Shown: in pieces, positions 12,233 to 56,671 of the stretch
Layout of the letters: each line of letters begins with the position of its first letter
How positions within the stretch are numbered: position 1 is the first letter of the stretch
Origin: Agelas oroides
Lineage: Eukaryota > Porifera > Demospongiae > Agelasida > Agelasidae
Length of the DNA: 64,000 bases
Reading direction: 5' to 3'
Assembly: GCA_949130485.1 (NCBI GenBank)
Contig: OX422183.1
Location: 20,491,934 to 20,555,933, forward strand
Translations under genes and position numbers: made by a program
The notes under the pieces: model-generated
Databases searched by the model: none
What the model saw: the letters and a program-made list of their open reading frames with translations, nothing else
Told to the model about the DNA's origin: nothing

Positions 12233-12337
12233 TGTGAACCAACACTGCTGATGTAATCCAAAGTCCTATTCCAAGGAAAGTGAGAATAAAAGCAATGAAC
12301 AATATGCGTCTCTTCTTTTTGCTCTCCTTTATATTCT
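12233..12337 (-). CDS. M1 membrane-helix exon 5
   Basis: Acceptor TTTGCAG, donor GTAAGTC, 105 nt, phase 1-1. A basic leader (KESKKKRR) is followed by ILFIAFILTFLGIGLW and ITSAVLV. Same length as, and homologous to, M2 exon 34556-34660. Confidence 0.75.
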
Positions 12338-15300
12338 CTGCAAAGGAGACAAAATATATATATTAGTCATTTTAAGGTGACTATAATAAGTTTCCCCCTT
12401 CCAGTCAGAATCATCACAACTGAGAAGAGTATTTCCTTACCTCCGTGGTAGTAAACATGAATCCATACAGCAGTTGCAGCAAAACTGTACGCAGCAATCG
12501 AGGCTACAAATGCTGAGCCAATTAGTCCATCACGGGTTCTACGCCAACTTGGATCACATGTATCTGAGAAGGAAAGAACAATTATAATAACCTACTTCTT
12601 AGCTTTTTACCACTATGGTGCACAAATATTTGAATTGCATCTGAACACAGACTCACAAAAACATGTAAAATTTTCAGCAGCTCTTACTACACATTTAGCA
12701 GTGACATATACAATTAAAAGGTGACTATATTACATGCCGGTAATTACCTCTGAAGGGCACCATCCACTTATTTGAAGCCAAAGATAAGGTAGCTATACTA
12801 ATAGTAATAACGAATGCACATTCTCGTGCACCTTGGTTGTCTTCAGTCTCTGCAATTGGGCATATATGAATACACAAGGGACCTTTGAAGAACCCATAGT
12901 ATTCTGATTATAATGAAGAGGTAAAATGATGGTATTGATTTTTGCTTACTGCCATTTGGAGGGTTAGTCACTATCACTCCCACCGTGATCCAGAGTACTA
13001 CTCCAATCACACAGAAAAAAGTAGCAATCACCAGCAGAGCAAGCCAGCATTGATTCTTCCATTCTGCAGGTGTAAGAGATTGGGTAACATGTCTTACCAG
13101 AGTTACAGGACTCTGTTTGATGTGCACTCACAAGTGAACTCCATTACACTCACAACCAGGCTCCACCTCCATGCGTAAGACAAACTTTAGTGACCCCTTG
13201 CACAATACTTTGGCAATGGGCATGTGCACGTGCACATTGGGATGGTCTTTTGCATTGTTCACCTGTCAGCTATTTATTGTAAAATTCATTTCCTGTTGTC
13301 CGTAGGCACTGGCTGAATCCTCGAACCCCACCAAAGGCAATCCAGGAATTAGCCCAGGCTTGAACTTTGCTTGCCTTGTGCAGTCTAGGACTCACATTCA
13401 CTCAGCAGCTTCCACCCATAAGCCTACATCCTTCCACAGCCAACCCTTTCTACATAGACACAGCAAATTTTGCTGCCTGTATAGATATAAAACATATACC
13501 TTATCCATAGTCAGTTTTGCTCTATTTCGAGCCATTGTGACATGCCAAATTGGATGAATTGACAATGTTGGACAGCTTTTGGAAGAGGAAACTTAATTGA
13601 TTAGCTTGGGGCATCAAACTATGTACATGGTGCTGAAAGTAGCCCCCATAAAAAAGGAGTAGCTTTGATCCTTGAACAGAATGTACAATTGCAGTTGCAG
13701 CCCTACTAGCATATTTAGTTTTGCAAGCCCAGCAATGTTCAGGCCCATTGTTTCACATGAAAATGAGTGAGTGACTGAGAGCAGCATTGTAACAATTTCT
13801 CATCAATCGGATCAGGCACACTAACCATCACTTTCAAACAGGGCATGATTAAGATGCATAATTATGCGATAGCATCCACAAGGATGATGAACCCAGAAGG
13901 CAGAACAACTGCACCTGAGCTGAATTTTCAAGTCCAATGGATTACCAACAAGGTTTGTAGACAGAGCTACTAGAAGAAGACAAAGACCTCATAGTCAGCA
14001 ACCAAGTACAAGAATCTGCACCACTTACATAACAGGTAAATGGATCAGGAAAATTTGCAACAAGAAAGGAATCTAGGTCACCTTCCACTCATGCTGCACT
14101 CTGAGGATGATATTCATGAAGGTCAAAACCACATGGCCAATACTGATATCAAAGATGTTGTATAGAGCATCCCGTATATAGACTGTTACATTGGGAAGAC
14201 AGGAGGGACACTAAAAACCAGACTACAGGAACACAAGCATGATGTTAGACTTGGACATACAACCACCAATGTGCAGCCAGCTGCAAAATTTCAATGAAGA
14301 CGAGGGCTTACAACTCAGCCCAACCTGAAACAACATACTATACAATAACATTGTTTGTTCTTCCATGTACTGTTGCATATGTATAACTATTACGGTGTGA
14401 TTATGTAACTTCAGGTTCTGTTCTGTTAGCACTTCCCATTGCCTGATGAAGAATAGCAAAGTCAAAGACTATGTATTTGAAACATTGCATAAAATTTGTC
14501 AACTTCAGTCTGGTACTCTATGATATGATGAGATAATGACTATATCATGAACAAACTTCGGTATATGTTTGTTGGCACAGTGTATGCACTACTGACTAGA
14601 GGTTCAGTCTTGCTTGATTTTGAAAGTCCAGGGCCCAATGTCCAACTGTCCTATACAGACATCACAGATGTGTGAAAAAGATTGATGTAGGATTGGGCTT
14701 CATACTTTCATATACATCATTCACAGTTTGTTTTTATACTTTTGGCATGCCATCCCTGCACAACTTCAAACAGCATTTGACAGCAGTAGTTTGGGTAAGT
14801 CCAAGCATGTAATAGGTCCTGTACTATTGCCAGCTAGAAACTGTTGAAGGACCATACCATAAATTCTGGTTATTAAGCTATTGAAAGCACATTATCATTA
14901 GGCACATGCTTCCTTCATGGTACACGACACCATCTATTAATGTGCATCTCCAGCAGCAAGAGTTGCTAGTGGATTTTGTGCTAGAGATTATAGTTTGCTA
15001 AAACACCTACCAGATTACTACAGTTGCAATGTTATGCATTTTGACCACCTTCCCCAATGTATGTTTAGTAGGTTTTGTTGTGGATGCTTGGATTCTGTGC
15101 AAGAGGTCAGACAATGATATATTTTGTAGAACACACCCTCTAGAAATAGGAGATACATAAGGCAAGCTGCATAACAATAACTCACCGTCCTTGATATCTT
15201 TTCGTATTTTACTGCAACAATCTCCAATCCTTTGGTTCTGCTTTCTCAAATTAATGTAGCAAACAATGATCCCATCAATGGTTGTTACTATGGCACCAAC

Positions 15301-18300
15301 CAGTGTTGCCCCTATGGCAAGACCACCCATCACAATCAGAGGAATAGTCCATGGTGGTAGTCTACACACTGTTGGAACAACGATCGGAAAGAGAGAAGGG
15401 ATGACTATGACTAGGTTTGTGAATAAGCCTCCTTTGATAAAATTTGTGAATAGGTTCCTTTGAAAATGTTTTTGTTATAATATATGAACAACTATTAAAA
15501 CTTTCTCCCAAAATGCAACATTATAAATGGTAAGTTTATAACGTACCACATACAATGGAATTTCCAGACCATAAACCACTTCTTTTGCAAAATCTCTCAT
15601 CAGTGATGGTTGTATTTAGTTCAAACCCATCATTACAGACAAAGCAAGCCATTGAACCAGAAGTAATGCCAGTGTAGTAAGCCACTGTGGCCGTGTTGAC
15701 TGTAGTGTTCACCAGTGCAGCACTCCCAACACTACTGTCGTTACAACTTGGATACTGAGCAGCATTTTCCAGTAAGGTAACATCAGTCAGGAATGTAGCA
15801 CCAGCAACTGGCAGATTCCAAAGCTCTGTTATGTTACAAGCTGTGAAGTGACCATACAACATCAATTTCATGCCACATTAGTCACTTAATCGATAAAACT
15901 GCAGTATTGATTACCGTATTTATTCGAATAAACACCAGCAAATTAAATAATTTGAGTGGGCATGCACTAAGTTAGATCCTCCCATAAATTCCAGGAATTG
16001 AATTTCGTGGGTAAGATTAGATCATGTGTTGCAAGTGATTCAAACGTGAAAATTTTTTGGTCACACAGAGATGCAAGAGTTCCTGGGCTTCAGTTCTCCA
16101 TAAATGAGGTTCTTGGTAGACAGTAGCGGCTGCAGCAACGAAAAGTCCTACAAGCGCCAAAGTAGAACATTTATGGGATAGCTCCTTTTCCTGGAAATTG
16201 TTCTTGACCACCCTTTGTTGCCACAAAATAAACTGACTGGGACAACTTAGAGGCTTCATTCCTGGTATTGTGCTAAATTGGATCAACCCAAAATTAATTA
16301 GTGGGAGCTTGCGCTAAGTTGGATCCACGCATAAATTCCCAGAATTGGATTTCTTGCAGTAAATTGGATCACACGTTTTCTTTGAAAAAATTTGGTATGC
16401 TAATTACAACTCTAAGATATAGGTTTCATAGTACATACCATGCAGCAAAAATGTTTAATGTGTGAGCCATGAGTGAATTTACATACTTACTGTACTCCGC
16501 TATTTGGAAGTACTCACTATACTGTGGTGTTATGAAGTTCCCTTGCACTGTCACAGTGACATCTCCACTAACTGCAGACAAAATGTAATAGTACTCAGTT
16601 GAGGAGTTCAGTCGCTCTCTCAGTACCACACTGACAGAGTCCCCTGCTGTACCAGTCTCAGTGGATGTAGCAGAGTACGGCAGGTTCATGTAGGTTGAGT
16701 CAGTCCCATACTGGACTGTACAGCGAGCAGAGCCAGTGAACCCAGACAGAAATGTGCACAAAGTTCTTGCGTCAGTGGGTGAGGTCACACCTACCACTTC
16801 TCCAGTTAAGACAGGGTTGCTTGTGCCTACATACAGAAGAAGGAACTTGGGTTATCTGCATTCCAACAAAAAAAACAGCTTGTTGGTTGTGCCTACATTA
16901 AGAATATATAAGTAATCACATAAATTTGAATGTGATTTGTCAACAGGATTGCAAAAGTAATATTGCGAGTGATAGCAAATGTATGCATGTGTTGAACAGT
17001 GTGAGTGAATAGGCTATATCCCAAATAGGCCAAAGTAAGCAAGCTGAATGGTACTGTTTATGTCAGTCGAGAAGTCTGACAGAAAACTCTTCAGACAAAA
17101 ACAAAGCAGGAGAAAGGCAGAGGAAAAAAGGATATGGTGGAAAGTCTTTTATATCTATAGCCATCAATAGGCTAAATAATAACCTGCAAATATTCTTCAC
17201 ATATTAGGCACATCTTTTTTGTACATCCTCACAACATTTTTTACTCTTTTTAGCTACAGATAGATATACTGATAGCAACACAGCACAGTAGCATGATCGT
17301 CCAAGAGACTGAGTAGTCTGTTAACAACTGTCACCAGTCATTGTGAAACATGCATGCACAATTCTGTCGATGATGAACAAGTGTGCAATTGAAAAGATTG
17401 CCCTTTGTGTGAGAGTGAGTGTATTGATGCCTTCAGAGATTGTTGTGTCAAGTGGGAGATCTCCAACAACAACAGTCACATCATTGTTTCTATATTTCTA
17501 CATTAAACATCTAAATGGGTTACTAGTATGAGGCTCACTTGTAGTTAAGCTAAATTGTGTCTGAGTTACTTGCAGTTGGGGCAGTTAATTATGTTATGTA
17601 TTATGCGTGAATGTTGTACGTGTGTGGGGAAGTTTCCATGTATGTGAAAGATTATTTTAGATATGCTTAAACAAAAGCACTGGTCTTCAGGGGGGCACCC
17701 TTTTCAATTATTGCATCACCCTAGGTTTCGGTCCCTTTAAACTCCCTAAACATAAGACATACCCAAGTTGCTTCATCCACGTAACACAATCATGTAATTG
17801 TTGCATAATTATATTATTACAACAGGATTAGTTATACAAATTATATGCTGTGTATATAGTGATCACTGAAATGGAAAGTGACACATTTGTACCAGAGTTA
17901 CTAAATAAAGGTATACTGTTGTGCCCATCACACCCTCTACAGGAAGATTAGTCAAGACATCCAATCAGCAGCAAGCCACAACATTTCTCCCCTATACCAC
18001 TGTTAGTGATAACGTTTTCTCTCTTGTTGCTGAGAAACGTCAAAATTGCTATTACATTTACATCTACAAACATTTCGAAGTAGTCTGGTGTATGAATCTC
18101 AAAACAGTCTACAAAGGAAGACAATATTTGTAATAAAAACCAGCTTGCTGTATAACATTGCAAACATTAGCTGCCAGAAGGTGAATTAGCTGGTTTGGGT
18201 CTGCTCACACTGCAGGGACCACATGAGGAAGTACATATTATGGTCATACATTTCTCCAAACACCATGCAGTTCATGTTTTCTACACAACACCTTTCTGCA

Positions 18301-21267
18301 TAGCACCCTACAAGCTAGTACACACACACTGAGTGTGGATGCAGATATTTTGACTTTGCTTGTGGCATCCGCATTGCTCAAATGAAAACATACACTAACA
18401 CACTGCAAACATTGAGAAACCTTGTCGATATTGTATATTGCTCCTTGTTTGTCAGCCCACAGTCCATTGTTGCATGATATATGTATATGTATAGACAGAC
18501 AGCTTTATTCTGGCAGTGCTAAGTCTACTATGAAACTCACTCAACAATAGCCAATGGATTCTGGACTGGATTACTAGAATGGACTGATGAACTGGATTAT
18601 TGGATCAATGTTTGAACTGAATTTGCTCATATCACCTGACCTTTGGTCAATCAGAAGAGTGGACAAGTCACGTGTTGTACCAGCAAGTACAATGTCCGAA
18701 TATAAAATGTCAGCTGTAACCAACATGGTTGTCCACTTACAAAAATAGGTTTAGGCATGCTATACACAACATTCAGTACTTTTAAAATACAAACACATGC
18801 TGAACAAGTCACTGGTGAAGTTTTCTGTTGGTTTTGAAGTGGTTGCAATTGTCTAGAAGTAGGGCCATGACCAGTTTATGCATAATAAGTAGGGGGTCTA
18901 GGGCAGTCCAGATAATTGAGCAATAATTATTACGCAAGTGGTACTCCGTGTTTAAAAAGCAATAATTTACAGAAACTTTGTTGGCCTACCGCAAACTCCA
19001 GTCAATGATAATAGAGAACATAAAGCACATGTTCTTGTATCGTGCTACATTGTAACAATATGCTAAAACAAACAATTACGTAACTCTGTAGAATAAGAAT
19101 TTGAACATAATTATGTAGTTGTTGTGCAAAGTAGGGGAGCTCCAACACTAACTGGCACATCATTGTTTTTTTACACACACTCACAGATTAAGTCCCACTT
19201 CGTGAGTAACTAAATTGGATGGGGGATTTGTAGTTAATGGGTGGAGTAGTTGTAGTTAAATGGGTGGGTAGTCACAGCTAGTAGGATAGGGGATTTGTAA
19301 TTAAATGGGTGGGGTAGTTAATGCTAAATGAGGCTTAAAAACAATGGTCTTCATTAACTCACTTAGGCAATGAGTCTCACTATCCTGTACAAAAGTACTT
19401 CTTTATTGTGTGTAAGCAGTTTGTAAAGCTTCACTTTACTATTTGGTGGTAGCTAAATTATAAGGTCAGTAGATAATAGACATGATAGACTGAAGCTCAA
19501 GTTCGGCTACACATGCTAATACGGAGGCTGTGCAGTGGCTGTCCGTTTCGTGTGCAGCGCAAAAAAAGTTTTTACTTTCGTTAATTGAACTGTCAGGAAG
19601 CAGCTCTCAGGATGACTAGTGAAAGTAATCTGAGTTCATTTGGATGATATGGCAGTTTAATACATGCTGTACACAAATTACTCATTCATACTATTAACTC
19701 TCACTAATAATGATTCATGTACATGGGTGGCGGAACCGGTCCGGTTTTGGCCGGACAACTTTTCGGTGATCAAGTAATCAATATTCAAACAGTGCAGTGC
19801 AGAAGCGGAATGACATGTTCTTTGGAAGGCTGCACCAAGCAACACATTATATAATTATCTATGATTTCTTTAACTACTTATACTAGCGTCCCAGCCCGCG
19901 TGTATTGACTGCACATCTTCATCCTGAGAGCTGCTTCCTGACAGTTCAATTAACGAAAGTAAAAACCTTTTTTGTGCTGCACACGAAACGGACAGCCGCT
20001 GCACAGCCTCCGTATTAGGAGCCGGACCACTCTTGAGCTGCTTCTGCCACCCTGATGTATATAGCTTAATATGTCACAAGACAAATTTTAACTCACTGAT
20101 GGCTTGTGTTGTACATGTTCTTGCAGCTCCCACTCCCACCACATTCTCAGCAGCCACTGACACACCGTCATAGCTTAAGGGAGGATTTGAGGGTGGCTCA
20201 AAGGTGTGGTTACACCTCCCAGCTGTGCACATGGTAATGTTCACACTCTCAGTAGCCACAAAAGACCCAGTCTGGAATATGATCTGGTACTGTGTGATGT
20301 TCCCAGTCACATCTGGGCATGGGTCCTCTGGGTCCTGGAGGAAGTGTCTGGTATGTTAAATCTTACTGTGCATATCACGAGTGAACAGTTTCTTTCAGTA
20401 TGACTACGCTAGATACATATTCATGACAAGAAGTTTTAATTTTTAGGTCCTGAGGAGAGACTTAATAGAAAGCAGTTAATTAATGACTACAGCTTTATGA
20501 TGGGTGATTCCATTTGGATGTAAAAAGACAAATGGTTACCCAGTGCAGATCAAAGGTATCCGATAGCCATTAAAACAGTCACTATGTACTTGTTTCAAGT
20601 TTAGAAACACTCCTCTTGCACCATGTAAGGGCTCCATTTCTGCCTCTGCTTCAGACTGGATGGGGGACTGAGATCCTTGATTATTGTGATAATTGTGGTC
20701 AATAAGTGGTGTTGCTAGAGTCTTGAATATGCACAGAATGGCTGGAAATACCTCAAGTTTGAGGAGTGCTAAATCCCAGCAGAACTGGTAATACAATGAG
20801 TGGTTCATCAAACTTTATGTCACATGACTCAAGTTCTATTAGAATTGAGTTTTACAGCAATGGAAAGACTCGCAGATTATTGAAGTTGCTTTTCTTCATC
20901 TACAAATGTGCAGGTATATTACTAGCTAGTATATATATTACCCAGTGGGTGTTAGCCACACCCACCTTAATTGGCACGTGATTCTATGAATGTCATTAAT
21001 ATTTGAATTTTACTTGAACCACTCACATATGGTATGTTGAAGGAATCCATAGACTAAAATGACCTCTAAACAACAAAATGCAGTGGTGAATTACATGGAG
21101 GAGTTTTGATATGTGTATATGCTGTTCAAATATCAAAAGGCAATCTGAAGCTAGAGTGTTTGTGCGACTTACTGGTACAGTATCCCATGTGCTGTTGACA
21201 AACAGAAGTCTCCATGATGACTGGTTGTAAGACAGGGTGATGTTACAGCTGCTGGGAACTGCAGGGA
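12233..21267 (-). CDS. receptor M1: FN3/sushi-like ectodomain with a chain of membrane-helix exons
   Basis: A minus-strand receptor gene built from nine exons in transcription order: 21173-21267 and 20097-20334 (one FN3 split in two), 16518-16826 (module D), 15547-15840 (module E), 15186-15368, 12950-13063, 12748-12849, 12441-12563 and 12233-12337 (each with one hydrophobic segment). Phases are 1-0, 0-1, then all 1-1. FN3 exon lengths (95 and 238) equal those in M2 and C. The C-terminal half therefore has about five membrane segments where A, B and C have one. No signal peptide, Ig or first FN3 exon was found upstream, and the final exon after 12233 was not found, so both ends are open. The neighbour B diverges from it head-to-head 0.9 kb away. 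Function is unknown; a recognition receptor with a multi-pass membrane part is the inference. Confidence 0.75.
12441..12563 (-). CDS. M1 membrane-helix exon 4
   Basis: Acceptor TTCTCAG, donor GTAAGG, 123 nt, phase 1-1. Encodes TCDPSWRRTRDGL, then the helix IGSAFVASIAAYSFAATAVW and IHVYYHG. The homologue in M2 (34801-34934) shares CDP.WR.TRDGL and VWIHVYY but has lost this donor. Confidence 0.8.
12748..12849 (-). CDS. M1 membrane-helix exon 3
   Basis: Acceptor ATTGCAG, donor GTAATT, 102 nt, phase 1-1. An acidic leader (ETEDNQGARE) precedes a modest hydrophobic stretch (CAFVITISIATLSLAS). No counterpart was found in M2. The weakest of the helix exons. Confidence 0.6.
12950..13063 (-). CDS. M1 membrane-helix exon 2
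   Basis: Acceptor CCTGCAG, donor GTAAGC, 114 nt, phase 1-1. Encodes EWKNQCW, then LALLVIATFFCVIGVVLWIT, ending NPPNGS. The end matches FPPNGS of M2 exon 35079-35189. Confidence 0.8.
13900..14520 (+). pseudogene. Penelope-like element fragment, GIY-YIG endonuclease remnant
   Basis: At about 14154-14275 the plus strand reads DVVY, a stop (14163-14165), then SIPYIDCYIGKTGGTLKTRL and QEHKHDV. This is the usual GIY-YIG block of Penelope-like retroelements (VY-IPC...YIGeTgr-L-tRL-EH). A CCTGATGAAGAA segment near 14442 is typical of the region that follows the domain. The in-frame stop and missing reverse transcriptase mark it as dead. It sits inverted within an intron of M1. Confidence 0.65.
15186..15368 (-). 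CDS. M1 membrane-helix exon 1 with long basic loop
   Basis: Acceptor TCCAACAG, donor GTGAGT, 183 nt, phase 1-1. It begins CRLPPWTIPL, then LIVMGGLAIGATLVGAIVTT and IDGIIVCYI, followed by a charged loop (NLRKQNQRIGDCCSKIRKDI). Homologous to M2 exon 35592-35729, which has a shorter loop. Confidence 0.8.
15547..15840 (-). CDS. M1 exon: sushi-like module E
   Basis: Acceptor TTCACAG, donor GTACGT, 294 nt, phase 1-1. Shares ELWNLPVAGATFL, PSC, VAYYTGITSGS.ACFVC and the terminal SGLWSGNSIVC with the other E modules. Confidence 0.8.
15905..16400. repeat. degraded repeat element with internal direct repeats
   Basis: Related segments at about 15958-16028 and 16303-16376 share CTAAGTT.GATCC, CATAAATTCC, GAATTG.ATTTC and TTGGATCA. 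The left edge has ACCGTATTTATTCGAATAA. Similar sequence, including TTCGAATAATTACGGTATT, occurs at about 1240-1325 in receptor A, so this is a dispersed family. Confidence 0.5.
16518..16826 (-). CDS. M1 exon: Cys-containing FN3-like module D
   Basis: Acceptor GTATGTAG, donor GTGAGT, 309 nt, phase 1-1, the same length as D in A and C. Contains LTGEVVGVTSPTDA, TLCTFLSGF, ARCTVQYGTDSTYMNLPYSA and YYYILSAVSGD. Confidence 0.8.
16827..19489. other. M1 intron, no exon recognised
   Basis: Part of the 3.3-kb intron between FN3 and module D. It holds the inverted second copy of the 6240-6330 repeat (about 17665-17755) and a GGATTTGTAGTTAA/ATGGGTGG-rich patch (19195-19330). No coding sequence supported. 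Confidence 0.5.
19490..20042. mobile_element. non-autonomous element with ~120-bp inverted repeats
   Basis: The left arm (about 19490-19615) and right arm (about 19919-20042) are near-perfect reverse complements, covering CGGAGGCTGTGCAG, TGTCCGTTTCGTGTGCAG, TTTTTACTTTCGTTAATTGA and GAAGCAGCTCTCAGGAT. The 300-bp centre contains GGTCCGGTTTTGGCCGGAC. No coding capacity. It lies 55 bases from the FN3 exon of M1 that ends at 20097. Confidence 0.75.
20097..20334 (-). CDS. M1 exon: second half of FN3
   Basis: Acceptor CCTCCAG, donor GTGAGT, 238 nt, phase 0-1. It begins DPEDPCPDVTGNITQYQI and contains CTAGRCNHTFEPPSNPP and VSVAAENVVGVGAARTC, the typical FN3 F-G region. Exactly the same length in M2 and C. 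Confidence 0.85.
21173..21267 (-). CDS. M1 exon: first half of FN3
   Basis: Acceptor TCCTACAG, donor GTAAGTC, 95 nt, phase 1-0. Encodes VPAVPSSCNITLSYNQSSW, then LLFVNSTWDTVP, the A-B strands of the FN3 completed by the 238-nt exon. This is the most 5' exon of M1 that I can find. Confidence 0.8.
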
Positions 21268-22208: not shown

Positions 22209-22437
22209 CCTGCAGTGACCATAGCAGATGGAGTTGACAGTTCACCAACTGAGTACATCTTCTCCTATGGAACTGGATCTCCAATTTCTGTGTCAACAGG
22301 CTCAACTCCACAGTGCACTAGCAGCTCATGTCAACACACATTCAGAGACACTGACTTCCAAGTACAGCAATACAATGTGTCTGTGGCTGCCAGAAACGTA
22401 GTAGGAGTGGGTAATGCAAGCACACTTGTGACAATTG
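22209..22437 (+). CDS. receptor B exon: second half of FN3
   Basis: Acceptor TTTTTAG, donor GTATGT, 229 nt, phase 0-1. Contains PTEYIFSYGTGSPI, SSCQHTF and YNVSVAARNVVGVGNAST, which match the F-G part of the 238-nt exon of the paralogues. Diverged but intact. Confidence 0.75.
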
Positions 22438-32526: not shown

Positions 32527-32648
32527 TCATGACTGTGGGATAACTTTCATGGCTTTGCACTCATCAACTGTCATAACAATGGCCAATGGGATCCCCACCA
32601 CTGACAGAATCAGGAGGACTATGATGGTCACAAACACGCATTTAAAAA
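32527..32648 (-). CDS. M2 terminal exon: membrane helix and stop
   Basis: Acceptor TTTCCACAG, phase 1. Encodes VTIIVLLILSVVGIPLAIVM, then TVDECKAMKVIPQS and TGA. Shares TIIVLL.L.VVGIP with 33237-33341, so the two are duplicates. Confidence 0.7.
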
Positions 32649-40737: not shown

Positions 40738-40871
40738 CTGGAAAATATTAAGATGTCACATATAGTGGGCACAAGACATTGACAGTGTATGTCGGTACTT
40801 AACAGACAACAGGTTTCCCAATTTGGTGAACAAAAGCGGTCAAATCTGGTAGGATTGCTTGCTTCACATAC

Positions 40872-42186: not shown

Positions 42187-42362
42187 ATCAATTGCTCAGA
42201 AAAATGATATAGCACCTACAATAATGCAGCGTCAATTGCTCAGAAAAATGATATAGCACCTACAATAATGCAGCGTCAATTGCTCAGAAAAATGATATAG
42301 CACCTACAATAATGCACCGTCAATTGCTCAGAAAAATTATATAGCACCTACAATAATGCAGC
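42187..42362 (+). repeat. 44-bp tandem repeat, four copies
   Basis: The unit starts GTCAATTGCTCAGAAAAATG and ends TAATGCAGC; starts at 42187, 42231, 42275 and 42319. Nearly identical copies, so a recent expansion. It lies in the M2/C divergent region. Confidence 0.95.
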
Positions 42363-43669: not shown

Positions 43670-43727
43670 ATGTTCGTTCTTCGCGGAATTTCCAGTCTCC
43701 TTATGTTCAGCTTATTGCTTACAACAG
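43670..43727 (+). CDS. receptor C exon 1: signal peptide
   Basis: ATG at 43670 opens MFVLRGISSLLMFSLLLTT, a basic residue followed by a hydrophobic core, then donor GTACAT. 58 nt, so it ends in phase 1. The G at 43727 plus CC from the Ig exon gives Ala, a plausible cleavage region. Confidence 0.75.
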
Positions 43728-46700: not shown

Positions 46701-49700
46701 TCATTCACCAAGTGTGAAGTAAGCTAGTTAGTTTCTCCCAGTATTGTCTGCATGCAATGGAGACCCTTTCCAAGTTGTGGAGTGTGTGCATTTGTTGGTG
46801 GCATGGATTACTCTCGAAAGAGGAAGTTGGCTGGCTCATGTGAAACTAGTCACAGACAGTAGCTTGCTAGCTGAGCCAAAAGAGAAAGTGGATTCTCAGA
46901 GTTTGGTAACTGTCTTCATACATCAAATTCGGACGTCAGCTGTTCATCGTAACAGGATTTTATCTTTCTCTTCCTCCCTGCAAATTTTGATGCTGACTGG
47001 TCACCTTCAATTTTCATCTTCCCTGATATCAGCTGCTCATCTTCACTCGGTTTTCTTCTTCTTTTCTCCCTAAACGTTGGCTCTAAGTCCTGAGTTACAT
47101 TTGGTTCTCTGACAGCCTTTTCAATCTCCAGGAGCATATATCACACATGCAGATTGCAATCTTGCTAGTGTGGGATTCACTCCAGTTATTACTGCTATAG
47201 ATAGTAAAAATCAAATTTAGACTAGTACCACATGCAACCTAGCTATCAATTCATGCAAGTAGTTACATATTAATTGCTTCAGGTCCCCCCTCTGTCTCAA
47301 CTCCCTCCTGTGTTGACCTCTCTGGAGATATCAGTGGAGCTGTGAATGTCACTGTGAGCTGGACACTGAGTGGTGGAGACAGTGCTGATTTCTACCTCAT
47401 CAGCATCACTACCAATGCTCCCCAGACCCCATATGGAGGACTTCTGAACATAACCAATGCCAGTGTCACACAACATGAACTGACAAGTTTCATGGCAGGC
47501 TATGAGTATAGCATCACCGTACGTGGTGTCAACTGTGGGAGTCAAGAGGGGAGAGAGAGTGAGACCCTGACAATCAGACTTCAAGGTAAATTATTGCAAA
47601 ACCATTATCACAAGTTCGTTACACTAGTGTAATGAACTGTTGACATCAGATCATACTTCAAGAGGCAAAACAAAGAATTTGCAGAATTCCGGGCCAGAGT
47701 AAGCAATTGACATCCAATTAAATTAGTCTCATGATGCACCTACCGATTAATGTCTCAACAACAAACCTAGGAGAGTGGTGCTAGATGGCAAGACATACAT
47801 GGTTTGCATATTTGGCTGTGTAATCACAATACAGGCATAAGAAAGCATGGAGTCTAAACCATGAGTTGCATCTGCAGAGCAATAAACTGGTTGTTTGGCT
47901 TGCCAATTTCTTCCAGCACAGTTACGATCATATTACACAGGTCATGCATGTAACCAGCACCCGGGTCTGTCACTTCTCATCGTTTGTAGCCCAAAACTAA
48001 CTCTGGCCATATATATAGTTGTGAGTAGTTTATACACCTGTTGAAAGCTGGTAGGGTGAGTATGCACAATGCACTCAGGTTTTCCCCTACTACGTATTTC
48101 CTGCATTCATCTAGTAGCTGATAAAGTGGGGAAAGTTGCAAGTAGAAAGTAGCATTATAAGCCAAGAACGGTTGAAGGGTAGCACCCCATATAAATAAAT
48201 CCAGCCTTGGGTTTCATACTACTATCAACAAGATGGAAGTCTACATTCCTAAAAGTAGAAGCCTACAACCAAATATGCATGGTTGTAATAGGTAGCTCTC
48301 TTTGTACATTACAAATTATATATCCTCTACCCCAGTTCCTGATGCCCCTACCAACTGTGCTACTACTGTTATCTATAGGCAGTCATCAGGTGTGCTACTG
48401 TCCATTAACAACACGTGGTTTACAGTACCAGTAAGTCGTCTAACTACCACATAGTAATTTATTATGCACACTGATTGTTAATCAATAAACTACACCTCCC
48501 TCAAAAAAGGCAGTCTTACATGCATGGTATGCAAAGGCACTCACCTCAAAGGATGTGTTTCAGCCAATACCAGGCCTCATCAGCATGAATTTGACATTTC
48601 AGTAGCTTCTCAGTTGGCTTCTACATAAATGAAGGGAAGGTAATCTTTTACGAACTTGAGCTCGGAAAATAACTTGCCGACGTTTCGACTGAATGCTTTC
48701 GCCCTGATGACAACTGGAGCATTCAGTCGAAACGTCGGCATTTTTTGAACTCAAGTTGGTAGCTAACAGATAACCTTCTCTTCATGAATTTGACAGTTGC
48801 ATGAAGAAATGCTACACTCCAGAGCTGACTACACCACTATACAAGCAAAGCCATGACCAACTAGCTACCTGAATGCCTTCTTGCATGAAATAGTAGTCTC
48901 CATCTCAACTCATTCCTTCTTGTGTGTAAAACTATAGGTTGGCGGAAAGAACTGAACGTATGGCTGTACACTCACTGTGTTATAAAGTGCTTCCCTTCTA
49001 CCTGGAAGATCTTGACCAGGTGGTAGATTATCTGTGGTGACATATCACTGAGCTGTTTTTTGAATACCTCCATAGTTTCTATGCATGCAAGGTCTCCTGT
49101 TGAAAAGACTCATTCTATCAAAGCTGACTATGTACTATAGATCATGTTTCTTAAAATCACCACAAACTGTGCAGAATTCTTGGTAAGAGTTGCGACATCA
49201 GCTAGGTTTTAATAAGCAGCTGTAATTATGTTACTGGAGATGAATTACATCTTACAGAAAGCAATGATTGTAACTATGTCTCAAAGACTCATAAACTTTT
49301 TTCAGACTAAATTGTCGATTAGAAAGCAGAACATGGCACTAATGAATGTACATGCATGGTGTCCAATGCTTCCGTTGGCCCGTCATTTGTCAATAATGTT
49401 TTCATGCATCTTGGAATGTAACCTTTTCTGACAAAATTAGAACTCCACATTTAAGTTGCCACGTGTTTTAAATGCATCTTTCTTTTGAAATCTACGTTTA
49501 GAACATTAATGTTTTCTCCTCTATGTAATATTCACTTCCTTCAGGACCCAGAGGACCCATGCCCTGATGTAACTGGGAACATCACACAGTACCAGATCAG
49601 ATTCCAGAGTGGCTCATTATCAGCTACTCAGAATGTGAACATTGGCAGGTGTACAGCTGGGAGGTGTAGCCACACCTTTGAGCCTCCCTCAAATTCCCCC

Positions 49701-52700
49701 TCAAGCTATGACAGTGTGTCAGTGGCTGCTGAGAATGTGGTGGGAGTGGGAACTGCAAGAACATGTACAACACAACCCATCAGTGAGTTCTCACTCTTAC
49801 TTTGTCATGTTCCATACAAACATGCATTAATCATCCAGCCATGTTAGTAAACTACAGTGGGCTTTGGATTACTACTACTACCGTGTGTATTCTATCAAGA
49901 AGCATCAGTGAAGCATAATAGACTTATAACTCATCATGGTCTAGCGCAACCAACTCATCCTGGTCGGGATGGTCCAACTAGTACAACCAACTCATCCTGG
50001 TCAGGATGGTTCAACTAGTGCAACCAACTCATCCTGGTCAGGATGGTCCAACTAGTGTAACCAACTCATCCTGGTCAGGATGGTTCAACTAGTACAACCG
50101 ACTCATCCTGGTCAGGATGGTCCAACTAGTGCAACCGACTCATCCTGGTCAGGATGGTCCAACTAGTGTAACCAACACATCCTGGTCAGGATGGTCCAAC
50201 TAGTGTAACCAACTCATCCTGGTCAGGATGGTTACAACCGACTCATCCTGGTCAGGATGGTCCAACTAGTGTAACCAACTCATCCTGGTCAGGATGGTCC
50301 AACTAGTGCAACCAACTCATCCTCGTCAGGATGGTCCAACTAGTGTAACCAACTCACCCTGGTCAGGATGGTTCAACTAGTGTAACCAACTCATCCTGGT
50401 CAGGATGGTCCAACCAGTACAACCGACTCATCCTGGTCAGGATGGTTCAACTAGTACAACTGACTCATCCTGGTCAGGATGGTTCAACTAGTGCAACCAA
50501 CTCATCCTGGTCAGGATGCTCCATCTAGTGCAACCGACTCATCATGGTCAGGATGGTCCAACTAGTACAACCAACTCATCCTGGTCAGGATGGTCCATCT
50601 AGTGCAACCAACTCATCCTGGTCAGGATGGTTCAACTAGTGCAACCGACTCATCCTGGTCAGGATGGTCCATCTAGTACAACCGACTCATCCTGGTCAGG
50701 ATGGTTCAACTAGTGCAACCAACTCATCCTGGTCAGGATGGTTCAACTAGTACAACCGACTCATCCTGGTCAGGATGGTTCAACTAGTGCAACCAACTCA
50801 TCCTGGTCAGGATGGTCCATCTAGTGTAACCGATTCATCATGGTCAGGATGGTCCATCTAGTGCAACCGACTCATCGTGGTCAGGATGGTCCAACTAGTC
50901 CAACCGACTCATCCTGGTCAGGATGGTTCAACTATTGCAACCGACTCATCCTGGTCAGGATGGTCCATCTAGTGCAACCGACTCATCCTGGTCAGGATGG
51001 TTCAACTAGTGCAACCGACTCATCCTGGTCAGGATGGTCCAACTAGTGCAACCAACTCATCCTGGTCAGGATGGTCCATCTAGTGCAACCGACTCATCAT
51101 GGTCAGGATGGTTCAACTAGTCCAACCGACTCATCCTGGTCAGGATGGTCCATCTAGTGCAATGACTCATCATGGTCAGGATGGTCCAACTAGTACAACC
51201 GACTCATCCTGGTCAGGATGGTCCATCTAGTGCAACCGACTCATCCTGGTCAGGATGGTTCAACTAGTGCAACCAACTCATCCTGGTCAGGATGGTCCAT
51301 CTAGTACAACCGACTCATCATGGTCAGGATTGTCCAACTAGTGCAAACGACTCATCATGGTCAGGATTGTCCAACTAGTGCAACCGACTCATCATGGTCA
51401 GGATTGTCCAACTAGTGCAACCGACTCATCATGGTCAGGATTGTCCAACTAGTGCAACCGACTCATCATGGTCAGGATTGTCCAACTAGTGCAACCGACT
51501 CATCATGGTCAGGATTGTCCAACTAGTGCAACCAACTCATCATGGTCAGGATGGTCCAACTAGTGCATGGTCAGCTACGGTTGTCCAACTAGTGCAACCG
51601 ACTCATCATGGTCAGGATTGTGCAACTAGTGCAACCGACTATTGTAGAAAAACAGTCCAGAAACATGGTTTACTCTTGTTTGCACACCAGTTCTCACTCT
51701 TACTTTGTCATGTTCCATACAAACATGCATTAATCATCCAGCCATGTTAGTAAACTACAGTGGGCTTTGGATTACTACTACTACCGTGTGTATTCTATCA
51801 AGAAGCATCAGTGAAGCATAATAGACTTATAACTCATCATGGTCTAGCGCAACCAACTCATCCTGGTCGGGATGGTCCAACTAGTACAACCAACTCATCC
51901 TGGTCAGGATGGTTCAACTAGTGCAACCAACTCATCCTGGTCAGAATGGTCCAACTAGTGTAACCAACTCATCCTGGTCAGGATGGTTCAACTAGTACAA
52001 CCGACTCATCTTGGTCAGGATGGTTCAACTAGTGCAACCAACTCATCCTGGTCAGAATGGTCCAACTAGTGTAACCAACTCATCCTGGTCAGGATGGTTC
52101 AACTAGTACAACCGACTCATCCTGGTCAGGATGGTCCAACTAGTGCAACCGACTCATCCTGGTCAGGATGGTCCAACTAGTGTAACCAACACATCCTGGT
52201 CAGGATGGTCCAACTAGTGTAACCAACTCATCCTGGTCAGGATGGTTACAACCGACTCATCCTGGTCAGGATGGTCCAACTAGTGTAACCAACTCATCCT
52301 GGTCAGGATGCTCCAACTAGTGCAACCAACTCATCCTGGTCAGGATGGTCCAACTAGTGTAACCAACTCACCCGGGTCAGGATGGTTCAACTAGTGTAAC
52401 CAACTCATCCTGGTCAGGATGGTCCAACCAGTACAACCGACTCATCCTGGTCAGGATGGTTCAACTAGTACAACTGACTCATCCTGGTCAGGATGGTTCA
52501 ACTAGTGCAACCAACTCATCCTGGTCAGGATGGTCCATCAAGTACAACCGACTCATCCTGGTCAGGATGGTTCAACTAGTGCAACCGACTCATCATGGTC
52601 AGGATGCTCCATCTAGTGCAACCGACTCATCATGGTCAGGATGGTCCAACTAGTACAACCGACTCATCCTGGTCAGGATGGTCCATCTAGTGCAACCAAC

Positions 52701-55700
52701 TCATCCTGGTCAGGATGGTTCAACTAGTGCAACCGACTCATCCTTGTCAGGATGGTCCATCTAGTACAACCGACTCATCCTGGTCAGGATGGTTCAACTA
52801 GTGCAACCAACTCATCCTGGTCAGGATGGTTCAACTAGTACAACCGACTCATCCTGGTCAGGATGGTTCAACTAGTGCAACCAACTCATCCTGGTCAGGA
52901 TGGTCCATCTAGTGTAACCGATTCATCATGGTCAGGATGGTCCATCTAGTGCAACCGACTCATCGTGGTCAGGATGGTCCAACTAGTCCAACCGACTCAT
53001 CCTGGTCAGGATGGTTCAACTATTGCAACCGACTCATCCTGGTCAGGATGGTCCATCTAGTGCAACCGACTCATCCTGGTCAGGATGGTTCAACTAGTGC
53101 AACCGACTCATCCTGGTCAGGATGGTCCATCTAGTGCAACCGACTCATCATGGTCAGGATGGTTCAACTAGTGCAACCGACTCATCCTGGTCAGGATGGT
53201 CCATCTAGTGCAATGACTCATCATGGTCAGGATGGTCCAACTAGTACAACCGACTCATCCTGGTCAGGATGGTCCATCTAGTGCAACCGACTCATCCTGG
53301 TCAGGATGGTTCAACTAGTGCAACCGACTCATCCTGGTCAGGATGGTCCATCTAGTACAACCGACTCATCATGGTCAGGATTGTCCAACTAGTGCAAACG
53401 ACTCATCATGGTCAGGATTGTCCAACTAGTGCAACCGACTCATCATGGTCAGGATTGTCCAACTAGTGCAACCGACTCGTCATGGTCAGGATTGTCCAAC
53501 TAGTGCAACCAACTCATCATGGTCAGGATGGTCCAACTAGTGCATGGTCAGCTAGGGTTGTCCAACTAGTGCAACCGACTCATCATGGTCAGGATTGTCC
53601 AACTAGTGCAACCGACTATTGTAGAAAAACAGTCCAGAAACATGGTTTACTCTTGTTTGCACACCAAATTGCAGTCTAAATACCCATGCTATTGATGTAT
53701 TTGTAAATGCTTTCCTTATAATGAGTTTTCATAGGGCTACCAACTTGACAGTGGTTTCAATTAAGTAAGGTGCACCTTTTTACGGTATCACATTGATGTA
53801 TTGATATGTATAATGTTCATTGTCCCAATTGACTCTTTTTCGATATGATATCGTGTCACGTAAATTTACACGTGTTCTTGTAAAAAAGCAGCTTGAAAGT
53901 CGGCAAAGACAGTTGGGAAAGACAGCGGTTGTGAAAGCGGGGGCTTACATTGTGTCTATGGACAGAAAGACAACCGTGTACGGACGGGAAGCTGGTAAAA
54001 TCGCGTTTTTTGAAAAACGCGTACAAGCTGTCCATAGCAACGCGTTCCCTTATTTCACGGGCCTGCCTGTGAGTTCGAGCTTATATCGTTGTTATAGTAG
54101 CAGAGCCGGCCTTTATAATTCAGCATCATACAGTGCAAGCCCCCTGTGACACGTTGGTGCAATAATCTGAGTTTAGCTGGGAAACGACCTGTGCGGATAA
54201 AATTGCCTCTAACTCAAATTCAATATTTGCGCGAAGTGCCGGGTTTTCGCTCAGCGGGTCACATATTATAGCTCATTATATTGACCATTATCATGCACTT
54301 CTTTGTCTCATCTTGTTTATGCAATGTTAATATGTAGCATAATTTTAGAATTATATCGCAATCGGCATATTGGTACGGTGAAAACTAACTCACATAAAGA
54401 ATGCAAACATATCCTGCTATACACATGGTGAAGACTATAGTCTGAAACACTAGTAAACATATGCTTAATTGTGAAGCAGTACCTTTACTGTCACAATAAT
54501 GATTGATTTTAAGTCTACACACAGCGGTCCCCATATATATATATACAGAACATCTGGTTAATTAAGCTGATTTGAACCATCATCTTCCCATGCAGGTATG
54601 GCCAACAACCTCCTAACTGTAGAAGTAATAGGTGTAAGCTCTCCTGTTGACACCCAGCTGCAGTGCACATTCCTACCTTTTTTCACTGGCTCTGCTCACT
54701 GTACAATCCAGTATGGGACTGACCCTACCTACATGAACCTGCCATACTCTGCTGAGTCCTCTGAGACTGGTACAGCAGGGGACACTGTCAGTGTGGTACT
54801 GAGGGAGCGACTGAACTCCTCAACTGTGTACTACTACACTGTGTCTGCAGTTAGTGGAGATGTGACTGTGAGAGTGCGAGGGTCCTTCACAACACCACAG
54901 TATAGTAAATATGTGCATGTGCTAGGACTACAACAACTAGCATATTAGTCAATTAATCAGTTGCAACTTCAAGTAAAGGTGGTCAACTACAACCTTTCTT
55001 TGTTGACAAATGGACATACATTAGCTACCATGTTATGATGGCCATCTACTACTGTAAGTGTCTAAAGATTGTATGAGTATTTGAACTAAGAAAATAAGAA
55101 TAATTAACTATCGTCAACCACCTGTGCAAATCTTCTGTTTTATTGGGCCTTAGATAGTACATGTTATGTGCCTTAGTGGGAGAAATAGACATTGGTAAAC
55201 AAAACTTCAAAGATTTCATTGCACGGTCATTTCATAGGTTGTTCCCTGACAGAACTTTGGAACCTGCCAGCTGCCGGTGTCACCTTGCTGTCTGATGTTA
55301 GTTTACTGAATACTTCTGCTGCTCGGTATCCAAGTTGTGATGATAGAAGTGTTGGGAGTGTTGTGCTGGAGAACACTACACTCAAGACAGCCACAGTGGC
55401 TTACTACACTGGCACGACTTCTGGTTCAACAGCTTGTTTTGTCTGCGATGAGGGCAGTGAGTATGCACCAAATACAACCACTACTGCTGAGAGAGTGTGC
55501 AGAAGTAATGGAACGTGGTCTGGAAATACCATCCTTTGTGGTATGTTGTAAAACATGACATTACTTCCAGCTTCACAGGAGCAAGTTTTATCCTTGTAGG
55601 TACACTATGGTAGTATGCGTATTCATGGAAGCAAAGCTTGAAGCCTTGATAGATGCTCAAAACTGAAATTGTATCCACATGAGGTTGTACATACCCTTAG

Positions 55701-56671
55701 AAAACAATTTGGTTGTACCATCCCAAATAATTCATATAATCTCAGGGATGTTTCGATCCGATGTGGACCTTCATCAGGCTTGACAAAATCTGTACAGCAA
55801 TATGTGGATAAAACACAGCAGTCTATTGTCATGCAATCTAATGCTGTGTACTTTACCAATGGTCCCAGGCTAATATGGAACTGGACTGGTTCTTGGTCTG
55901 CAAATTTATTGTTATCAAACAATTATTGCAGTAACAACTTTATAAATTATTTTGTAGCACATTGTTTAGGTAGATCAAATTAGGTACTTATGTATTGATT
56001 AAAGGTACTTGTGTTATTGAGTAAAACCATATTAAGGAATTTGTATTTTAGCTGAGGGACTAAAAATTGAACCAAACTTTTTGTGAATCTTGTGTACACT
56101 TTGACGTTACCCATTCATCCGTCCACATGACTCAGAGGTTTGTGATTCAAGGGTGTCCTACCTTAAGGAATTTGTATTTCACACCTGAGGCACTTTCTCT
56201 GAGATACGGTGCCTTTCACATTTTGCTGTACTGCATTTGTGGAGGATTTATAAAAGGGATTGTTTTTGTATCCTAATTTGCTCATTCTGACCTGCTTTTA
56301 TGCACCTTTTACACTGCAATGTTTTATCAGCATCTAATAATTGAACTTGTACTTATTTCCGTTCAGGTGCTGTAGAACCCCTTCCTCCTGATGCTGCTAT
56401 GTGGATTGCAGTTTCAACTACTGCAGTAGTGGTGTTCATAGCTGGTCTCCTGGTTGGTGTTCTGGGTGGAGTTCTGCTGTACCACTGTGTTATCAAGCAC
56501 CAGGCATCCTCCCACCAACAGAAGAAGACCGTATCATCTTCTAATCCACTGCAGCAAACTGGTCCACAGTATGAGGAAGTGATGGAACTGAGACAGAATA
56601 CAGCCTATGAACCGACACAGACTGGTATTGAAATGAGACCGAATGAAGCTTATGGACCAATGCAACACTGA
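43670..56671 (+). CDS. receptor C: SP-Ig-FN3-FN3-D-E-TM receptor with tyrosine tail, complete
   Basis: Exons 43670-43727 (signal peptide), 45321-45620 (Ig), 47283-47585 (FN3), 48336-48430 plus 49545-49782 (FN3), 54596-54904 (module D), 55238-55540 (module E), 56367-56671 (helix, tail, TGA). They join without frame conflict into 1911 nt, 636 residues. Approximate residues: signal 1-19, Ig 20-119, FN3 120-220, FN3 221-331, D 332-434, E 435-535, helix 547-574, tail 575-636. Tyrosines 604 (QYEEV), 616 (AYEPTQ) and 631 (AYGPMQ) lie in the tail; YEEV could bind SH2 domains if phosphorylated. The start is the ATG at 43670, which opens a hydrophobic leader and gives the phase 1 needed by the Ig exon. 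The 4.8-kb intron before D is mostly 37-bp minisatellite. Head-to-head with M2. The architecture suggests a recognition or adhesion receptor, possibly of immune or self/non-self type; this is inference. Confidence 0.85.
45321..45620 (+). CDS. receptor C exon 2: Ig-like domain
   Basis: Acceptor TCTTACACAG, donor GTACAA, 300 nt, phase 1-1. Contains SEVRLTQQ, QCTLSGIAAIWTFPGGE (Cys and Trp of the Ig core), FTSTLTFPAENGTVIIC (second core Cys) and ends in VTVRG. Confidence 0.9.
46329..46490 (+). repeat. 56-bp tandem repeat, three copies
   Basis: GGTCCACAAGAATCTACTCC starts at 46385 and 46441; a degraded third unit begins about 46329 (GCAAGAAACTTGTTCAACAG). Lies in the Ig-FN3 intron of C. Confidence 0.8.
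46518..46643. mobile_element. fold-back element (hairpin)
   Basis: Arms of about 50 bases: CCTAACCAGAGGTTCTTAGG, GAAGCCTGATGAAG.GTTTACATAAT on the left, and the complement on the right ending CTAGCTGGTTAGG. The centre is TCCCTTTGGGCTTTACCC. No coding capacity. Confidence 0.75.
47283..47585 (+). CDS. receptor C exon 3: first FN3 module
   Basis: Acceptor GCTTCAG, donor GTAAAT, 303 nt, phase 1-1. Contains GAVNVTVSWTLSGGD, LISITTNAPQTPYGGLLNIT and YEYSITVRGVNCGSQEGRES, typical FN3 B- and F-strand signatures. Confidence 0.85.
48336..48430 (+). CDS. receptor C exon 4: first half of second FN3
   Basis: Acceptor CTACCCCAG, donor GTAAGTC, 95 nt, phase 1-0. Reads VPDAPTNCATTVIYRQSSG, then VLLSINNTWFTVP. 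Too short for ordinary ORF detection; found by similarity to the M2 exon at 37991-38085. Confidence 0.85.
48624..48792. mobile_element. fold-back element with perfect 22-bp core arms
   Basis: TGCCGACGTTTCGACTGAAT.. (48675-48696) and its exact complement (48719-48740) flank TTTCGCCCTGATGACAACTG. Outer arms (AAATGAAG.GAAGGTAATC against GATAACCTTCTCTTCAT) extend the inverted repeat to about 70-80 bases per side. Lies in the intron splitting the second FN3 of C. Confidence 0.8.
49545..49782 (+). CDS. receptor C exon 5: second half of second FN3
   Basis: Acceptor CCTTCAG, donor GTGAGT, 238 nt, phase 0-1. Begins DPEDPCPDVTGNITQYQI and has CTAGRCSHTFEPPSNSPS and VSVAAENVVGVGTARTC. The large intron duplication begins five bases after the donor, at 49788. 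Confidence 0.9.
49788..51690 (+). repeat. 1.9-kb intron duplication, copy 1
   Basis: Begins TTCTCACTCTTACTTTGTCA, runs through a unique 140-bp leader and the minisatellite, and ends GTTTACTCTTGTTTGCACAC CAG at 51690. The same leader and end flank copy 2 (51691-53666), so the array plus its edges was duplicated in tandem as one block. Confidence 0.9.
49930..51640 (+). repeat. 37-bp minisatellite, array 1
   Basis: Consensus unit, in parts: CAACCRACTCATCCTGGTCA, GGATGGTYCA, ACTAGTG. About 45 units by length. Each contains the palindrome CATCCTGGTCAGGATG (7-bp arms) and usually ACTAGT. The last units (from about 51305) carry CATGGTCAGGATTGTCC, a local variant that spread later. Since 37 is not a multiple of 3, open frames across it are incidental. 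Confidence 0.97.
51691..53666 (+). repeat. 2.0-kb intron duplication, copy 2
   Basis: Second copy of 49788-51690, with the identical leader (51691-51830) and tail (GAAAAACAGTCCAGAAACAT to ACACCA at 53666). Unit-by-unit variants largely follow copy 1, with a few units gained or lost. Confidence 0.9.
51831..53618 (+). repeat. 37-bp minisatellite, array 2
   Basis: About 48 units by length of the same 37-bp repeat. The order of unit variants (for example the 4-base-shifted GGATGGTTACAACCGACTCA and the CAATGACTCATC deletion unit) repeats that of array 1, which shows duplication of the whole array rather than independent growth. Confidence 0.97.
53820..54250 (+). other. CpG-rich segment with a 109-codon open frame
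   Basis: Unusual base use for the window: many CpGs (CGTGTACGGACGGGAAG, AAAACGCGTACAAG, GCGCGAAGTGCCGGG). The open frame 53820-54149 reads, in part, GKTAVVKAGAYIVSMDRKTT and FEKRVQAVHSNAFPYFTGLP. It has no recognised homology and only a TTG start. It could be a young transposon, an exon of another gene, or a CpG-island-like regulatory region. Confidence 0.3.
54596..54904 (+). CDS. receptor C exon 6: Cys-containing FN3-like module D
   Basis: Acceptor CCATGCAG, donor GTAAAT, 309 nt, phase 1-1. Contains LLTVEVIGVSSPVDT, QLQCTFLPFFTGSAHC, QYGTDPTYMNLPYSAESSET and YYYTVSAVSGDVTVRVRG; nearly identical to 791-1099. Confidence 0.9.
55238..55540 (+). CDS. receptor C exon 7: sushi-like module E
   Basis: Acceptor TTTCATAG, donor GTATGT, 303 nt, phase 1-1. 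Contains ELWNLPAAGVTLLSDVSLL, YPSC, STACFVCDEGSEYAPNTT and RSNGTWSGNTILCG. Confidence 0.9.
55700..55800 (-). repeat. short repeat fragment resembling a Penelope-like 3' tail
   Basis: The minus strand reads CCTGATGAAGGTCCACATCG then GATCGAAACATCCC, a form often seen at the 3' end of Penelope-like elements. Nothing else of the element is visible. Confidence 0.35.
56367..56671 (+). CDS. receptor C exon 8: transmembrane helix and tyrosine tail
   Basis: Acceptor CCGTTCAG, phase 1, stop TGA 56669-56671. Begins GAVEPLPPDAAMW, helix VVVFIAGLLVGVLGGVLLYH, then CVIKH. The tail has TGPQYEEVMEL, NTAYEPTQ and NEAYGPMQH. Confidence 0.92.

Follow-up and report, generated by a model that had tools for sequence, protein, structure and literature searches.

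A receptor array of the sponge Agelas oroides with divergent pairs of multi-pass and single-pass genes

In the tunicate Botryllus, genes of the fester family (FF) encode an immunoglobulin (Ig) domain, a sushi domain and three transmembrane (TM) segments, and those of the fester co-receptors (FcoR) an Ig domain, a sushi domain, two Ig domains, one TM segment and a tyrosine tail (PMC12065747). The available parts of that source describe FF and FcoR genes as adjoining, co-expressed and arrayed as many pairs, report that the knock-down of paired genes affects fusion and rejection, mention a further locus with single-pass members only, and name ITIM (immunoreceptor tyrosine-based inhibitory motif), hemITAM or YxxI/L/V motifs in the tyrosine tail (PMC12065747). 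Here, we describe nearly the same arrangement in a window of 64,000 nucleotides from the sponge Agelas oroides (C1:20491934-20555933 of a 259-Mb assembly), where a multi-pass gene with Ig-like and sushi exons stands repeatedly beside a single-pass Ig-like and sushi gene with a tyrosine tail. The initial annotation of this window had stated that no described system has such a layout, which was wrong in view of the Botryllus pairs, as far as the source is available (PMC12065747).

The likeness to FF/FcoR is one of layout and domains, the orientation of FF and FcoR not being stated in the parts of the source consulted. Measured against those parts, the sponge genes differ in several respects: the multi-pass gene M1 has four helix exons, and the multi-pass genes M2 and Mc more, against three helices in FF; the array has FN3-like and D modules, whereas FF is without FN3 and FcoR has two further C2 Ig domains; ITIM-like motifs lie behind multi-pass genes; and the classes of the outermost, Ig-like domains (tips) match within a pair.

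Other systems are more distant. The Alr cluster of Hydractinia comprises 41 Ig-like allorecognition genes according to the part of the source at hand (PMC11999971), and motifs of the ITAM (immunoreceptor tyrosine-based activation motif) and ITIM types are reported on candidate Alr genes in another, likewise partial source (PMC12065747). The sponge genes, unlike these, have a single Ig-like domain followed by FN3-like, D and sushi modules, and one partner is multi-pass. Alr proteins have V-set and I-set domains, and we know of no multi-pass partner or divergent pairing among them. In the vertebrate KIR, LILR and SIRP families, very similar outer domains are joined to differing and often opposite membrane ends, with ITIM on one side; both partners of these paired receptors are single-pass, and the activating ones usually combine a charged helix residue with an adaptor. 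Plant NLR pairs, which are intracellular NB-LRR proteins, resemble the sponge pairs in the divergent promoter only. The MTA/MTB genes of Tetrahymena are, in the accessible parts of the report, a head-to-head pair of membrane-protein genes for non-self recognition, with a type-specific part, a shared TM exon and a tandem array of pairs (PMC3608545). Head-to-head pairs of membrane-protein genes in an array are a likeness to the sponge locus; unlike it, MTA/MTB belong to a ciliate and involve programmed DNA rearrangement and furin-like repeats (PMC3608545).

No report of such receptor pairs in sponges was found among the open-licence papers listed, covered mostly by titles and abstract openings. 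To our knowledge, the receptors by which sponges distinguish self from non-self have not been identified so far. Sponge recognition is described, in the part of one review that was available, via Ig-like adhesion molecules, the aggregation factor and glyconectins (PMC11999971), and the accessible text of a transcriptome paper on sponge grafting makes no mention of immunoglobulin or sushi (PMC5450542).

Divergent pairs and their membrane ends

Self-comparison of the open reading frames recovered the ends of five genes in the window, A (+), M1 (-), B (+), M2 (-) and C (+). M2 and C have Ig-like, F1 (FN3), F2a/F2, D and E (sushi-like) exons in common, in identical order on opposite strands, and their Ig-like exons lie head to head with 4.6 kb between them. 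Exon self-comparison and splice scoring bore out the exon content, strands and phases that had been read for this pair in the initial annotation. Ectodomain and helix exons are of phase 1-1 wherever splice sites could be scored, the F2a/F2 join, of phase 0, being the sole exception; among the loci that carry helix exons, phases were checked in M1, M2 and partly in Mc. The exons of M2 would be joined to several helix exons, and the plus-strand genes end, as had been annotated, in one helix and a tyrosine tail, an end seen in C, B and A. The exons of the pair are the following.

32545..32649, minus strand: M2 downstream helix exon TM5b
33235..33342, minus strand: M2 downstream helix exon TM5a (M2/Mc pS 0.14, pN 0.08)
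34556..34660, minus strand: M2 TM4 exon
34801..34934, minus strand: M2 TM3 exon, no donor site, reads into a stop
35079..35189, minus strand: M2 TM2 exon
35592..35729, minus strand: M2 TM1 exon, match starts 132 nt past the E match
35859..36156, minus strand: M2 E (sushi-like) exon
36252..36559, minus strand: M2 D exon
37544..37789, minus strand: M2 F2 exon
37991..38085, minus strand: M2 F2a exon
39173..39486, minus strand: M2 F1 (FN3) exon, donor not fixed
40444..40737, minus strand: M2 Ig-like exon
45321..45625, plus strand: C Ig-like exon, about 76-77% identical to that of M2
47283..47585, plus strand: C F1 exon (Pfam fn3, 28.6 bits)
48336..48430, plus strand: C F2a exon
49545..49790, plus strand: C F2 exon, donor not fixed
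49797..53800, plus strand: minisatellite with a 37-nt unit that separates exons F2 and D of C, 86 register copies for one reference
54596..54904, plus strand: C D exon, donor not fixed
55240..55540, plus strand: C E (sushi-like) exon (Pfam score of 17.7 bits, under the cut-off)
56367..56671, plus strand: C terminal exon with a single helix, followed by YEEV and two NxAY motifs

In Pfam, the E exons score best with sushi, below the cut-off for C and above it for B-type genes (28.4 bits), and the fn3 score of F1 in C is above the cut-off. The Ig-like assignment is weaker than the sushi assignment: the Ig-like exons gave no Pfam hit above the cut-off, a profile of six tips met Ig-superfamily chains of the PDB at E 0.04-1 only (among the best 60 of 99 matches), and the AlphaFold model was useless, with a predicted local distance difference test score (pLDDT) of 34; the C-W-C pattern is kept in the tips. 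For the D module, AlphaFold gave a beta sandwich (pLDDT 76.9) with no PDB match at E <= 0.001, and Pfam a hit below the cut-off to the N-terminal domain of purple acid phosphatase. For signal-peptide exons, a first scan gave one weak candidate for C and none that was consistent.

Downstream of C, positions 56546-57868 and 58311-59535 of the window form a partial tandem duplication of its last part and 3' flank, including a 288-nt stretch that is 98% identical, and the second copy of the C tail holds an internal stop. A minisatellite different from that of C lies in the 3' region of a paralogous M gene near 20741700-20743000.

The window lies within a large receptor array, in which a divergent gene pair is the most frequent unit. 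Genome searches gave 115 matches to the terminal exon of the single-pass genes (T), 110 to D, at least 76 to E, 86 to F2 and at least 117 to F1 (the E and F1 counts are lower bounds, with 150 candidates scored), and 20, 79 and 35 to the three Ig-like tips, nearly all of them on C1; the searches covered three Ig-like classes, and genes with other tips are missing from the counts. When nearby same-strand heads were merged (20254305+20255120, 20047761/20048517, 20081317/20081508 and 20654793/20655408), 59 Ig-like heads were counted at 18.5-21.5 Mb, heads outside this region, such as the pairs 14433461/14447328 and 29389098/29404183, being left out. Their neighbours within 30 kb were divergent in 20 cases, convergent in 3 and on the same strand in 10. 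Divergent neighbours had a mean of 8.4 and a maximum of 17 in strand shuffles, and 20 was reached in 0 of 20,000; because block-duplicated copies are not independent, the count of 20 versus 8.4 is descriptive. The divergent pairing of a multi-pass and a single-pass gene, initially proposed from the window, is borne out by its recurrence in the genome: among 19 annotated pairs, helix exons were found on the minus partner in 11, a T exon on the plus partner in 17 and both in 10, and a twentieth pair (20182587/20201868) has helix exons on the minus and T on the plus side. The block that contains B, M2 and C recurs at 20.73-20.79 Mb, where C and its copy are 96-99% identical module by module.

A second sub-array at C1:14.09-14.51 Mb has divergent Ig-like heads (14433461/14447328 and 14258183/14272847) and T matches on the plus strand. 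At C1:19620117-19637369 (minus strand), more than 30 F1 (FN3) matches follow each other in a run at a spacing of about 0.5 kb, with frames of up to 741 aa.

The multi-pass end of the M genes is real. A genome search with the helix exons of M1 gave 40 matches, 39 of which were on the minus strand, and single-exon profiles recovered TM2, TM3 and TM4, always in one order, in M1, M2 and four further loci, with TM1 in most. The TM1 match starts 132-345 nt behind the sushi match in five of the six M loci and 1007 nt behind it in the sixth; the introns of M1 and M2 are compatible with phase 1, and a splice acceptor opens the TM1 exon of both. The number of helices varies, M1 having four helix exons and M2 and Mc additionally TM5a and TM5b, and the TM3 donor, present in M1 and Mc, is missing in M2. 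It had been proposed that the minus-strand gene ends in several helix exons, and TM1-TM4 were indeed recovered in other copies; helices are not always the end, a tyrosine tail exon apparently following 6-23 kb downstream in some M genes. Four of the six clear TM1 matches keep an Asp in the first M helix. Between copies of the helix exons, nonsynonymous change (pN) is usually below synonymous change (pS), with five reversed TM3 comparisons (pN above pS), all of M2, Mc or Mb versus Ma or Md; purifying selection, which is not uniform, is likely to act on the M copies. The helix module gave no Pfam hit above the cut-off and no PDB match better than E 0.07.

A motif scan of the 3' regions of six M genes, with [SIVL]xYxx[ILV] as the ITIM consensus, gave one candidate tail exon, and a genome search with this exon gave 8 matches, all on the minus strand and two of them at one locus. 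Four of the six strongest matches lie 6-23 kb downstream of genes with helix-exon matches; the 27.9-Mb tail exon stands 15 kb past D and E exons that have no helix match, and the 14.73-Mb tail, which was not placed, has an internal stop and an apparent one-base loss and has probably decayed. Acceptor and donor are kept in the five intact exons. Two ITIM-consensus motifs were found in five of the six exons (the 19.72-Mb copy has only one) and tyrosines 23 residues apart in five of the six, the motif type being LMYADV...VQYTLL, while two or more ITIM motifs appeared in 109 of 30,000 shuffled tails; pN was below pS in 10/10 comparisons, two of them narrowly. We infer that this ITIM-like exon belongs to the M gene, on the cytoplasmic side. 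In place of such a tail, two M-like loci (21149545 and 21183208) have a terminal exon of the T type on the same strand, a hint that alternative ends exist.

The T tails contain YEE[VI] in 13 of 16 cases, the others being YAEV, YEDV and one frame-broken copy, and YEE[VI], YAEV or YEDV together in 15 of 16; we take YEE[VI] to be a motif of the Src-SH2 type. A 433-aa open frame with consecutive matches to the T tyrosine tail was observed in both copies of the duplicated block, at C1:20571101-20571979 and 20789079-20789957 (both on the minus strand).

Sorting of the exons by pair and by gene type

Both tips were read in three pairs (M2/C, 21337750/21341847 and 20713174/20725645), which define the Ig-like classes beta, alpha and gamma. 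Tip identity is 76, 68 and 77%, respectively, within these pairs and 27-37% between them. With the copy of M2/C dropped, the two partners agreed in Ig-like class in all 19 pairs, a result that 3 of 20,000 label shuffles reached. Of 29 other neighbours within 60 kb, 23 were concordant, all of them alpha, and all 6 with a minority class were discordant. The weight of the tip matching lies in the three minority-class pairs and in the identity matrix. The inner modules sort in another way: F2 follows gene type (77-86% identity among M and C versus 29-41% against two B-type genes), and D also does, one kind being found in M and C and another in B-type partners. The sorting of the outermost domain by pair and of F2 and D by gene type is new here; also new is the tail exon with two ITIM-like motifs behind some M genes elsewhere in the genome.

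Where present in M1, M2, C and A, the F2, D, Ig-like and F1 exons are 80-90% identical at the DNA level, and 600-nt flanks of the exons gave no alignment in 11 of 11 comparisons, the lone downstream hit being the position of the neighbouring E exon. Synonymous divergence of F2 is 0.10-0.18; the set used for pN and pS leaves out F1. By contrast, stretches spanning introns align at 75-77% between M1 and its copy Mb. Because the exons are so alike and their flanks unalignable, either exchange limited to exons or a very fast turnover of introns may have occurred, and we favour exchange.

Models for the paired genes

These genes may be matched paired receptors for self/non-self or microbe (immune) sensing, M being inhibitory and T activating, a reading to which we give a probability of about 0.4. 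M and T would be expressed together from the shared 5' region and would bind one and the same class of ligand, or the tips of one another on an adjacent cell, with different outputs. M would damp the response via the tail with two ITIM-like motifs, T would start it via the conserved YEE[VI] motif and via NxAY motifs, and the integration of the two signals would set fusion, tolerance or attack. The sharing of tips within pairs fits partners that act together or on the same ligand. The partners had initially been imagined as a sensing and a signalling chain; recurring pairing and tip sharing fit such joint action, and this division of roles is made less likely by the tail with two ITIM-like motifs that some M genes seem to possess themselves.

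That the array is a sponge recognition locus of divergent inhibitory/activating pairs, whose tips are kept matched, across the promoter region that the partners share, by exon-limited exchange and selection, is a tentative proposal that we hold to be rather doubtful. If it were true, specificity would be a property of the pair, and a paired allorecognition design like that of Botryllus would have originated, or been retained, at the base of the animals; the tunicate pairing of multi-pass and single-pass receptors would then be paralleled in a very remote animal, through either deep ancestry or convergence. The array supplies candidate sponge recognition receptors, with the prediction that pair partners are co-expressed and share tip alleles.

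Several observations weigh against the reading of M and T as inhibitory and activating partners. As to the pairing, no membrane end was detected on the minus side of 7 of the 19 pairs, one divergent pair has a single-pass minus partner (20047761), unpaired members occur in a single-pass run at 19.99-20.13 Mb, some M genes have no divergent head within 30 kb, and searches with the three Ig-like classes and F1 gave no Ig-like or F1 exon for M1 or B. As to the tips, the 3' regions of Ma and Mb, the M genes of two gamma pairs, align at 73-83% over four stretches, so that these pairs may be copies of one unit and may not be independent; within alpha, tip 21341847 has a better genome match (76%) than its partner (69%); F1 is not sorted by pair, with 74% identity between M2 and C and with the 21.33-Mb M gene at 76% to M2 and 84% to C; and shared tips could stem from gene conversion without function. 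As to signalling, neither motif scan nor profile gave an ITIM-like tail for M1 or M2, one of the five intact M tails has a single ITIM-consensus motif, and the link of tail to M gene is positional only, because 6-23 kb separate the tail exons from the last match to a helix or sushi exon. Unlike the helices of many vertebrate activating receptors, 15 of 16 T helices have no charged residue; the remaining one has Glu, and none has a basic residue.

The pairs could instead be a by-product of duplication, an alternative that is possible, if on the unlikely side, and in which an ancestral divergent pair would have been copied many times as a unit, with exon-limited gene conversion keeping the ectodomain exons of the two strands alike and a functionally meaningless pairing. 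The recurring block of B, M2 and C with its near-identical C copies, the alike exons between unalignable flanks and the low synonymous divergence of F2 all speak for it, but conversion alone leaves unexplained why tips sort by pair and F2 and D by type, and the same helix-exon order was found in six M loci; copying weakens the p value of the strand shuffle, which treats copies as independent, and not the tip matching. More doubtful still is a heteromeric receptor of the kind proposed for FF/FcoR, with M and T in one complex, M as part of the binding site and T as the signalling chain. The Botryllus source, in its available parts, has the same adjacency of multi-pass and single-pass Ig/sushi genes, shared tips would make a two-domain binding site, and the Asp of the first M helix could be an assembly site; such a complex sits poorly with the apparent tyrosine tail of some M genes, with T helices devoid of a basic residue and with tandem runs of T genes only. 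A separate membrane gene on the minus strand, made up of the helix exons and following the ectodomain gene, is very improbable: the last exons of M1 and M2 were not resolved and the gene models come from genomic sequence alone, yet the position of TM1 close behind the sushi match, the phase-1 introns of M1 and M2 and the acceptor that opens the TM1 exon argue against it.

Pair M1/B, gene A and other features

M1 and B occupy the left part of the window.

12233..12337, minus strand: M1 TM4 exon
12441..12563, minus strand: M1 TM3 exon
12950..13063, minus strand: M1 TM2 exon
15186..15368, minus strand: M1 TM1 exon, match starts 178 nt past the E match
15547..15838, minus strand: M1 E (sushi-like) exon, acceptor not fixed
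16518..16826, minus strand: M1 D exon
20092..20334, minus strand: M1 F2 exon, donor not fixed
21173..21267, minus strand: M1 F2a exon, with neither F1 nor an Ig-like exon found past it
21942, no strand: point left of which B no longer matches its paralogue B', likely a deletion junction (both heads removed)
22233..22433, plus strand: B F2-like exon (genome 20514166-20514366)
22941..23210, plus strand: B D-like exon
23573..23837, plus strand: B sushi exon (28.4 bits, above the Pfam cut-off)
24487..24770, plus strand: B terminal exon, one helix and a tyrosine tail

The initial annotation had read these genes as a head-to-head pair with shared modules, which holds for the D-like (46%), sushi and F2-like exons, the only ones that they have in common, and not for the Ig-like and F1 exons. 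The identity of B to B', a fuller paralogue, is 99.7% over 21942-22530 and 87.6% over 23067-26221. The match stops left of 21942, and 1.8 kb of B' farther upstream, in which Ig-like and FN3-like exons lie, match nothing in the window. Because the match ends there, the heads of M1 and B look deleted, and the simplest account appears to be one deletion that took both. It is thus probable that M1/B does not work as a pair in this haplotype.

Three exons of A lie in the window.

791..1099, plus strand: A D exon
2424..2721, plus strand: A E (sushi-like) exon, acceptor not fixed
4760..5052, plus strand: A terminal exon, one helix and a tyrosine tail

The head of A lies left of the window, with an Ig-like match at 20484371 (plus strand), 29 kb from a minus-strand Ig-like head at 20454904. 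Because of these opposing heads, a third pair with A as its plus half is plausible, as had been suspected; no helix exon was matched in the minus partner.

A tunicate origin of the DNA, which would make the array the fester locus itself, was rejected. In cox1 on contig C141, TGA is read as Trp, all AGA codons (6/6, in two matched pieces) stand at conserved Arg sites, and the gene lies in two pieces, as if split by an intron. AGA means Gly under the ascidian mitochondrial code; these features of cox1 exclude that code and fit a sponge, probably a demosponge. A second cox1-like match, without TGA codons and perhaps bacterial, was observed at C107:16176-16808.

The window also contains a tRNA-Glu (CTC) gene at 6057-6130 (plus strand) and, at 61809-63722 (minus strand), a 638-aa open frame with hydrophobic stretches and no Pfam family above the cut-off.

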